Assembly (NCBI RefSeq): GCF_000315485.1
Contig: NZ_JH992942.1
Location: 722,028 to 786,027 of the forward strand
Length of the DNA stretch: 64,000 bases
Direction: 5' to 3'
From: Bacteroides oleiciplenus YIT 12058
Lineage (GTDB): Bacteria; Bacteroidota; Bacteroidia; Bacteroidales; Bacteroidaceae
This document shows positions 14,736-16,934 of the stretch, in pieces; position 1 is the first letter of the stretch, and each line of letters starts with the position of its first letter. The position numbers were made by a program, and so were the translations under genes. Below the pieces are notes generated by a model that saw only the letters and a list, made by a program, of their open reading frames with translations, did no database searches and was not told where the DNA came from.

Positions 14736-15662
14736 ATGGTGAAAGATACAGTATTTAATTTAAGTTTTCAGGATTATTTTGAAAGGATGATGCCTCAGGT
14801 GTCCTTTCAGGAGCAACTGGTAGTTGTCGATTTGGATGATTCGGTAACAAAGGAGGATAAAGTGGGGAGATATCCAATGAGACTTGAAGCCTCTTCATTG
14901 GTAGTAGTCTTATCCGGCGAAATGAGCATTGAAGTGGATTATCTGCCTTATACCCTTAAACCGCATACAGTGATGCAGTTATTGGCCGACAATATAATTG
15001 GTAATGTAGTGCATACTTCTGATTTCAGTGCATATTTAATTCTCTTCTCGCCGGAATTGAAACAGGAAATCATGTCTCTTACTTCCGGCATACGTTTTCC
15101 GAAAGCGGGCAATCTGAAACGCTTGTACCCCGAACAGATGCTAACCGATGATGAATGCGGAATTGCTGTGAATCGGATTGAGCGCATCAAACAGTATATA
15201 GCCGATACCACCCATCTTTACCGATCCACGATTATTAAAAATAAAGTGATAAATTTGTTGCTTGATATTACCAATAGTCGTTGGAAAACGTATGGGGAAA
15301 GAGAAGTTTCGTTTTCGCGCAATGAAATAATCCGTCAGCGTTTTCACGAGTTACTACTGGAGAATTGCCGGAAGCGCCGTGATGTAGGATTTTATGCGCA
15401 AGAGTTGTGTGTCACTCCTGATTATTTATCAAAGATAATACGGGAGTGCGACGGTCAGTCAGCACTGAAATGGATAAGCAATGCCGTTGTAACAGAAGCC
15501 AAACTCCTGTTGCGACGACCGGATATGAATATCAACCAAATAGCGATTGAATTAAATTTTCCGGACCAATCTACATTTGGAAAATTTTTCAAAAGGAATA
15601 CAGGCGTAGCACCTGCCCGATACAGGGCAGATACTTTACGAAAAGAGGCCGGTTATCGCTGA
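14736..15662 (+). CDS. AraC family transcriptional regulator
   Basis: The 308-residue protein has an N-terminal cupin-like sensing region (about residues 1-170) and a C-terminal AraC double helix-turn-helix (about residues 205-300). Typical helices are visible: VGFYAQELCVTPDYLSKIIRE and MNINQIAIELNFPDQSTFGKFF, ending RNTGVAPARYR. Divergent to the aldo/keto reductase, which is the likely target. Its 3' end overlaps the 3' end of the HU-like gene on the other strand by 10 bp. Confidence 0.9.
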   Translation: MVKDTVFNLSFQDYFERMMPQVSFQEQLVVVDLDDSVTKEDKVGRYPMRLEASSLVVVLSGEMSIEVDYLPYTLKPHTVMQLLADNIIGNVVHTSDFSAYLILFSPELKQEIMSLTSGIRFPKAGNLKRLYPEQMLTDDECGIAVNRIERIKQYIADTTHLYRSTIIKNKVINLLLDITNSRWKTYGEREVSFSRNEIIRQRFHELLLENCRKRRDVGFYAQELCVTPDYLSKIIRECDGQSALKWISNAVVTEAKLLLRRPDMNINQIAIELNFPDQSTFGKFFKRNTGVAPARYRADTLRKEAGYR

Positions 15663-16264
15663 TTCCTTATATAAACCACTGAACGTCCTCCGCCTCGTTT
15701 GCGGATAATGCCTTCTGCCAGATATTCCTGCAAATCACAAGTAGCCCGGCGGTCGGTCACATTCGTCAGGCGGGAGTACTCGGCACGCGTAATGCAGATA
15801 TTTACTTCCAAGAATTTCAGCATCATTTCTTTTCTTTTTTCAGGGGTTACTGCCGGTTTTTTTGTTGCCATCTTCTTGTCCAGCCTTTCCAAATCCATTT
15901 GATACCTTACGTACTTTTTGAAGTCTTTGCTTGGACGGAACTTCACCGTTTCGAACCTTACGGACTCGGCACGGATATCTTTCTTGTTCATGGCGGGTCG
16001 CATGCATTTCAGCGTAGTGCTGAAGTATCCTAACTCGTCAAATTCCACACTGTATCCATCGGCAAGCCAGTCGCCCAGTGCATTGCTGATGGCTTGCATA
16101 ATGCCCACTATCATGGCGTGCGGCATGTGCTGTTCTTTCATCACCCGTTCCTGGAACTCTTTTGCCGTAATGGTGCCTTTGGAGTGTACGCGTGCGTGCA
16201 GTGGTTTCTTCTTACCTTCTCCACTGGGGTCCGGTGTTTCGTAGAGGTCATAATAAGTACTCAT
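15653..16264 (-). CDS. HU/IHF-like DNA-binding protein with C-terminal winged-helix-like extension
   Basis: The 203-residue protein contains a Bacteroidales HU-like domain (about residues 20-125). It includes KGTITAKEFQERVM, AISNALGDWLADGYSVEF and LGYFSTTLKC, with FRPSKDFKKYV closing it. About 70 extra residues follow, resembling a small helix-turn-helix (TRAEYSRLTNVTDRRATCD, then AEGIIRKRGGGRSVVY with a wing-like basic turn). It is probably a nucleoid or regulatory protein; targets are unknown. Its only visible -7 box lies between 35-bp inverted repeats upstream, so its expression may be phase-variable. It converges with the AraC gene, overlapping by 10 bp. Confidence 0.75.
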   Translation of the reverse strand: MSTYYDLYETPDPSGEGKKKPLHARVHSKGTITAKEFQERVMKEQHMPHAMIVGIMQAISNALGDWLADGYSVEFDELGYFSTTLKCMRPAMNKKDIRAESVRFETVKFRPSKDFKKYVRYQMDLERLDKKMATKKPAVTPEKRKEMMLKFLEVNICITRAEYSRLTNVTDRRATCDLQEYLAEGIIRKRGGGRSVVYIRNQR

Positions 16265-16384
16265 ATATACATTGTTTTAAGAGGTTTATACTTCCGTAGA
16301 AACAAACTGGCACCGGAACCGCAAGAAACTAATGTCGGATGTGCTACGAACTAATATTTTTCATACTAAAAAATATTCATACCA

Positions 16385-16392
16385 CAAATATA
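16385..16392 (-). promoter_or_regulatory. -7 box of the HU-like gene inside the inverted repeats
   Basis: On the minus strand TATATTTG fits TAnnTTTG. It is about 120 bp upstream of the start at 16264, so the transcript would begin in the left repeat arm and carry a long leader. Confidence 0.5.
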
Positions 16393-16400
16393 GTAGTTTC

Positions 16401-16457
16401 TTACAATAGTTATACTATTCACTTACAATAATTATAGAATTATCTTACAACAGTTGA
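16401..16457. repeat. three phased TTACAA repeats, 22-bp period
   Basis: TTACAA occurs at 16401, 16423 and 16445, each followed by an AT-rich half-conserved stretch. The period is exactly 22 bp, about two helical turns. They lie upstream of the HU-like gene's -7 box, consistent with an array of regulator sites. Confidence 0.5.
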
Positions 16458-16651
16458 TGTATGAATAGTTTTTAGTATGAAAAATATTAGTTCCTTGCGG
16501 TGCGGGGATTAGTTTTTAGGGAGTTGGATGTTAGTTTTATTTAAGATAGCAAGATTTGGTTTTGCTAACCACATTTATAAGTAGATTCAAATATCGGAAA
16601 AATGATATGGAAGCTTCCATATATATAGAAGAATCTCTTATATTCACTTAA

Positions 16652-16894
16652 CATAGATATGTCAAGATGGGGCATGACTATAAGGATGGCATGCTGGATA
16701 TTTATGTAGAAGATACAAGGTTGAGGATTGAGAAAATGAACTTACCGAAAATATTCGAACGCTTCAAGAAGTTGAATGCCTTTATATAAGGCACAGAACT
16801 AGGACTACCTATCTGTAAGTCTATTGCTGAACAGATAGGAGGGGATGTTGGTGTGGAGTCCAAATGTGGAAAAGACTCTGCTTTTCATGTATGA
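16652..16894 (+). pseudogene. remnant of a sensor histidine kinase ATPase domain
   Basis: One reading frame (with a TAA at 16787) spells a decayed HATPase_c domain. It reads DGMLDIYVEDTRLRIEK, then IFERFKKLNAFI, stop, GTELGLPICKSIAEQIGGD and VGVESKCGKDSAFHV. These match the G1, F and G2 boxes and the C-terminus of Bacteroides kinases (DTGIGI, IFERFVKLN, GTGLGLSICK, GKGST), with key Gly residues lost. Nothing upstream encodes the rest. It lies beside the PUL and could be the relic of an earlier regulator or of an unrelated kinase. Confidence 0.75.
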
Positions 16895-16934
16895 CTCCTT
16901 TGCTTGGTTGAGTAAGTTATGATTATTCGGATCT

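Follow-up and report, generated by a model that had tools for sequence, protein, structure and literature searches.

The inverted repeat just upstream of an HU-HIG DNA-binding protein gene of Bacteroides oleiciplenus YIT 12058 is the middle part of a palindromic array of about 232 bp, one member of a family that occupies about 15 places in this genome, of which 10 have a complete core and 5 are short or partial. On balance, we lean towards regarding these arrays as an old, dispersed, intergenic palindromic family that would bind protein in phase and whose core would be flipped by template switching, rather than as invertons driven by a recombinase. The evidence comes from the window, by which we mean the whole 64,000-nucleotide stretch that was analysed, from the B. 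oleiciplenus genome and from its relatives.

Architecture of the array at the HU-HIG locus

The sequence-only reading had described two 35-bp inverted arms around a 76-bp spacer, a minus-strand TAnnTTTG box and an HU-like gene, and had proposed that together they form an invertible promoter. Direct reading of the sequence confirmed the arms and the spacer with exact coordinates, 34/35 positions matching between 16348-16382 and 16459-16493; the box is present as TATATTTG at 16392-16385, and the gene encodes an HU-HIG protein (PF18291, E 3.6e-38) (Table 1). Beyond the arms the repeat goes on in 22-bp steps and spans about 16305-16536. Counting inverted repeats of 20 nt or more that lie no further than 1500 bp apart, no other pair in the 64-kb window comes near it in length. 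Its gap-free extension has 110-nt arms of 70% identity lying 14 nt apart. The minus strand of 16300-16540 has a predicted folding energy of -64.5 kcal/mol, whereas shuffled versions average -35.3 (z -7.5) and 0/200 of them fold as well.

Table 1. Features of the array and its neighbouring gene (positions in the window)
Feature	Position	Strand	Remarks
HU-HIG DNA-binding protein gene	15653..16264	-	203 aa; PF18291 130.9 bits, cut-off 26.2
Complete palindromic array: outer units of 22 bp, arms and core	16305..16536	.	Based on sequence and on dispersed copies in the B. oleiciplenus genome
Left outer AACTAAT units	16305..16355	+	Starts at 16305 (decayed, AACTGGC), 16327 and 16349; 22 bp apart
Left arm (gene-proximal)	16348..16382	+	Carries the first core motif, TTCATAC, at its end; based on sequence
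Core, four forward half-sites and one reverse (f4 r1)	16376..16465	+	90 bp
Half-site f1	16376..16386	+	9/11 to TTCTTACAACA; opens the 22-bp grid
Candidate -7 box TATATTTG, directed at the HU-HIG gene	16385..16392	-	In 6/7 orthologues
Half-site f2	16398..16408	+	10/11
Half-site f3	16420..16430	+	8/11
Half-site f4	16442..16452	+	10/11; left half of the 24-bp palindrome
Half-site r1	16455..16465	-	9/11; right half of the 24-bp palindrome
Right arm	16459..16493	-	Copy-like of the left arm in B. oleiciplenus and G145
Right outer units	16486..16536	-	ATTAGTT at 16486 and 16508, GTTAGTT at 16530; 22 bp apart

Comparison of the copies within the B. oleiciplenus genome revealed a common plan, in which outer units (AACTAATNNNNNNNNTGCAAG) recur every 22 bp and a linker leads to a core bounded by TTCNTAC and GTANGAA. 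The core consists of five half-sites with the consensus TTCTTACAACA, a given number of forward sites being followed by reverse sites up to five, on a 22-bp grid equal to two helical turns. An odd number of half-sites keeps the 24-bp palindrome off centre in every array and so gives the array a direction. With the core length left free between 60 and 140 in the script, cores were found in 42 of 44 copies from 8 genomes, 40 of them exactly 90 bp long and two of 68 bp (90-22); this count omits the short B. oleiciplenus forms C1_284, C3_622, C8_119 and C1:623284. The two copies without a core are collapsed forms (G066 at C4_112 and B. oleiciplenus at C4_507). Core length is constant despite a mean between-locus identity of only 0.69, and none of the 42 cores showed an indel other than one whole 22-bp unit.

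Among the 40 cores of 90 bp, 104/110 forward motifs fell on the grid starts 3, 25, 47 and 69, and 80/89 reverse motifs on 18, 40, 62 and 84. Positions 3 and 84 are fixed by the core definition; with the end motifs left out, forward motifs stood at 25, 47 or 69 in 69/75 cases and reverse motifs at 18, 40 or 62 in 43/52. A forced fit of five half-sites matched 46-52 of 55 positions in these cores, and because this fit presupposes five sites, the independent evidence is the 22-bp grid itself. The information content, ends left out, was 18.8 bits for unpaired half-sites and 20.1 for paired ones (13 positions, 60 sites each, 14 loci), or 16.9 and 19.7 bits with the ends included. A pure hairpin would not need sequence conservation in the unpaired half-sites. 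Their conservation, and a register that within the clade shifts by nothing but whole units, suggest a protein reading one face of the helix.

The array may carry the promoter of the HU-HIG gene. No convincing -33 box was found by eye near TATATTTG. Across the 42 cores, 11 TAnnTTTG boxes were counted, against a shuffled mean of 6.5 (s.d. 2.4), and 6 of these 11 are one orthologous site, that of the HU locus. If TATATTTG is the HU-HIG promoter, a flip of the core could switch the gene, the arms in B. oleiciplenus now being alike; the array at this locus was not seen flipped in the seven genomes compared.

A general link between arrays and HU-HIG genes was rejected, as judged by coordinates such a gene lies within 10 kb at only 1/14 array places in B. 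oleiciplenus. This genome has 40 PF18291 matches, 39 of them over the cut-off and two being pieces of one frame. The model also matches in 9/14 control genomes, E. coli included, so that some of the 40 may be ordinary HU proteins. On first reading, arrays in G070 and G079 seemed to lie beside an HU-HIG gene; the matching region of G170 is upstream of rRNA operons.

Only the gene-side flank of the HU locus is common to relatives. The far-side DNA, upstream of 16536, differs among genomes though the array and the HU-HIG gene are shared (L103, L104, L105 and L107), and the change coincides with the array end. In the window this side holds a GntR-family gene; in L104 it holds a second gene beside one with a McrB-like ATPase match below cut-off (with similar DNA in G145 and G169), and in L105 another gene. 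Between the GntR-family gene and the array, positions 16660-16895 of the plus strand look, by eye, like the stop-interrupted remains of a histidine-kinase C-terminus.

Dispersed copies in B. oleiciplenus and other Bacteroides

The B. oleiciplenus genome (7,085,990 bases, 7.09 Mb, in 15 contigs) was searched at the DNA level with positions 16300-16540, which yielded 27 matches at an E cut-off of 1. These belong to 12 places at E <= 1.2e-4 and to 3 weaker ones, C1:1672859 (no units on reading), C1:587451 and C2:242559, which were dropped before the counts. A pattern of two outer units matched 42 times, against 2 for the reversed control, and added C4_507 and C8_119, the latter provisionally counted as short or partial; the weak pattern match C5:640763 was dropped. 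C1:623284, which consists of outer units in a short form, came from a search that used a different copy as query. Judged from open reading frames, 14 of the places lie between divergent genes (8), same-strand genes (5) or convergent genes (1); the divergent share has no usable control, the window giving only 6 gaps of at least 250 bp. Neighbours of the sister copies include the genes for ribosomal protein L21 and XerC. C4_507, collapsed in B. oleiciplenus and full in five relatives, lies between the genes for an aspartate-alanine antiporter and an aspartate 4-decarboxylase.

For six of the B. oleiciplenus loci (C1_1409, C4_112, C4_507, C3_599, C6_53 and the HU locus), between two and six other genomes carry a partner, with flank identities of 78-97% between orthologous array places. 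With the C1_1409 copy (L008) as query and up to 4 candidates scored in each genome, at least 11 of 158 genus genomes matched, at least 8 with long copies and at least 3 with short ones only, and seven of the eight long-copy genomes were searched again. With up to 3 mismatches allowed, the palindrome of the core was found in 14/158 genus genomes, with zero control matches; the match in G047 is isolated and lacks neighbouring half-sites by eye. In an even sample of the order, 1/293 genomes other than B. oleiciplenus matched at up to 2 mismatches, weakly, and this match was taken as chance.

In eleven arrays, chiefly from G046, G070, G074, G079, G105 and G170, site spacing follows multiples of 22 bp with two exceptions: a single site is 1 bp off the grid in L227 (G079), and the order of forward and reverse sites is broken in L216 (G105). 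Only four half-sites were detected in the L224 array. In G170, 16S rRNA genes lie about 1 kb downstream of two arrays. The G046 array lies between genes like the antiporter and decarboxylase pair of C4_507, the antiporter being named by reading and the decarboxylase match, from a cut protein, falling below the NCBIfam cut-off.

The family seems, from these comparisons of sequence, to gain places and also to collapse. Among the seven genomes viewed, the C5_283 and C1_516 arrays occur only in B. oleiciplenus and G145, unrelated sequence standing beside the shared flank in G167, G066, G169, G122 and G045. At C7_286, B. oleiciplenus has an array, where G167, G145, G122 and G066 have just a short palindrome made of its outer unit, and G169 and G045 have other sequence. 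At C4_507, B. oleiciplenus has itself lost the core.

Near the C7_286-orthologous site of G045, L182 holds a palindromic array of different sequence (TTTCTTTCCACCRCGGTGGAAAGAAA) with apparently the same 22-bp period, which suggests that the architecture may outlive the sequence. A two-unit ATTAGTTTTTATAAGAGAGAGATTAGTTTTTAGG repeat with 22-bp spacing was also observed upstream of a lipoprotein-like gene in L085 and L086 (G046 and G074), with a short match in L052 (G018). A phage or plasmid origin was considered and rejected, since 50,697 phage records and 72,556 plasmid records gave zero matches to the L008 copy.

Orientation of the core and likeness of the arms

When the flanks are used to orient the orthologues, 3/10 loci show a core inverted between species; only one flank was available for orienting at the HU locus, C1_516, C1_1797, C5_227 and some copies elsewhere. 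At C1_1409, B. oleiciplenus, G122, G169 and G045 stand against G167 and G066; at C4_112, B. oleiciplenus and G145 against G167 and G122; and at C1_516, B. oleiciplenus against G145. The flipped pairs (13/65) showed 71-90% identity in the inverted reading versus 56-70% in the direct one. G122 sides with B. oleiciplenus at C1_1409 and with G167 at C4_112; this unlike split of the species indicates that core flips have probably recurred. Every pair is direct at the other seven loci, including 21/21 pairs among 7 genomes at the HU locus. The inverton proposal had called for a comparison of orientation among related genomes, and at this locus all seven (7/7, one genome per species) share the same one.

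The likeness of the arms was scored over the first 27 nt outside the core, where left and right match at 26/27 positions in the B. oleiciplenus HU array. At the three flipped loci, 26-27 of 27 positions are alike, except in G169 (15) and G045 (18) at C1_1409. The score is 15-18/27 at C3_599 and C6_53, and 17-21/27 at C4_507 except in G145 (27). C5_283 and C1_1797 have arms alike at 25-26/27 positions, yet are unflipped. At the HU locus, B. oleiciplenus and its close relative G145 score 26/27 and the other five genomes 15-19/27: in the first two the gene-distal arm looks like a copy of the gene-proximal one, whereas the others keep a different sequence. These five orthologues with unlike arms argue that the 34/35 identity is not a conserved recombination site, and the comparison makes this identity look recent.

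Origin and possible role of the arrays

In the model that we favour, a sequence-specific protein would bind the half-sites along one face of the DNA, and the bound array would work near genes as a nucleoprotein structure or as something like an insulator. What keeps the arms alike, and now and then flips the core, would be template switching by the polymerase from one inverted repeat to the other rather than a dedicated invertase. Such template switching is reported to yield homogenisation of the arms and inversion of the spacer (PMC8604942), so that both of our observations, the inverted cores and the arms made alike at the HU locus in two genomes and at C4_507 in G145, fit without an invertase. 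Examples of these inversions in that paper have spacers of a few bases, short spacers being, according to its authors, favoured by selection in coding sequence (PMC8604942). We infer that the process extends to spacers of 75-90 bp, far longer than those reported. Three points weigh against the favoured model: arm identity accompanies inversion, as an invertase would also predict; at the 5/14 B. oleiciplenus places between same-strand genes an RNA role is possible; and the spacing rules loosen outside the clade (L227 and L216).

A true inverton, in which a trans-acting site-specific recombinase flips the core and turns TATATTTG toward or away from the HU-HIG gene, appears quite improbable. The likeness of the arms in the window, the inversion of the core at three sister loci, the presence of the box in most HU orthologues and an orientation pattern that differs between loci, so that flips probably recur, all speak for it. 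At the HU locus itself, however, a single orientation is shared by all seven genomes and five of them have unlike arms; arm sequences also differ from locus to locus, the box is mostly limited to the HU locus, HU-HIG genes are near one array place in fourteen, and the ribosomal protein L21 and XerC genes beside sister copies are unlikely on/off targets. The proposal of a promoter inverton thus survives in part, for the box and the flipped sister copies, and the structural palindrome that had been offered as its alternative lies closer to the evidence.

We consider it somewhat less improbable, though still unlikely, that the arrays are mostly fossil copies of a MITE-like non-autonomous mobile element that spread to intergenic sites, with a spacing inherited rather than selected. 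The dispersal of the copies fits such an element, as do the C5_283 and C1_516 arrays, confined to two of the genomes viewed. Of three array-less places compared, two have unrelated sequence and one, in four relatives, a short palindrome of the same units; at these three loci no clear target-site duplication was found. Against the element also stand the several copies kept at orthologous places and the restriction of indels in the 42 cores to whole 22-bp units. A MITE origin would in any case be compatible with a present function. A structured RNA, whose arms and core would fold in the transcript and affect mRNA stability, termination or expression, could account for the strong predicted fold and for the five places between same-strand genes, among them C4_507, where the array is also present in G046. 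We judge it a doubtful explanation, because the unpaired half-sites are conserved and because neither gene need transcribe the array at the 8/14 places between divergent genes. Rfam had no family over the array at the gathering cut-off, with 0 matches in the window and, for L230 and L231, nothing but rRNA and tRNA outside the array; below threshold, eight loci gave only long hairpins resembling microRNA precursors and an rRNA end.

BOX, ERIC and REP/BIME elements are bacterial modular palindromic repeats that are intergenic, dispersed and hairpin-forming. The array family resembles them in all these properties and differs in its 22-bp grid, its five half-sites and its occurrence in Bacteroides. 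Iteron and operator arrays with helical phasing repeat half-sites every two turns, as the present arrays do; unlike them, these arrays have an odd count, an off-centre palindrome and inverted-arm flanks. Bacteroides invertons of the PhaseFinder class (PMC11892184) are also short inverted-repeat-flanked DNA upstream of a gene, and the sister arrays likewise occur in both orientations across species; the HU-locus array departs from them in its uniform orientation, in the unlike arms of five orthologues and in the 90-bp five-site array inside. Inverted repeats shaped by template switching, the subject of PMC8604942 and PMC8794818, share arm homogenisation and spacer inversion (PMC8604942) with our family, whose spacer is far longer and whose arrays are dispersed and phased rather than chance repeats. 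Literature searches by sequence string matched no paper, and searches by keyword, most subscription papers being outside their reach, gave no description of the family among the titles and opening lines of abstracts listed.

A more far-reaching and rather speculative reading, which we hold to be improbable, is that the arrays form an undescribed Bacteroides lattice, in which five-half-site, 22-bp arrays bound by an oligomeric protein would serve as flippable polar insulators or boundaries beside genes. If so, the odd number of sites would give direction, the inverted arms would let that direction flip, and rRNA genes, the L21 ribosomal protein gene and the HU-like gene would be among those bounded.

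The story of a promoter switch at a single locus is thereby replaced by that of a multi-site family within one genome, which reappears in other Bacteroides with changed sequence and nearly the same spacing, including upstream of rRNA operons. Inverted-repeat screens alone cannot separate passive inversion from enzyme-driven phase variation. The family offers a natural test set for what holds arrays in register, and for distinguishing passive inversion by template switching from phase variation driven by an enzyme.
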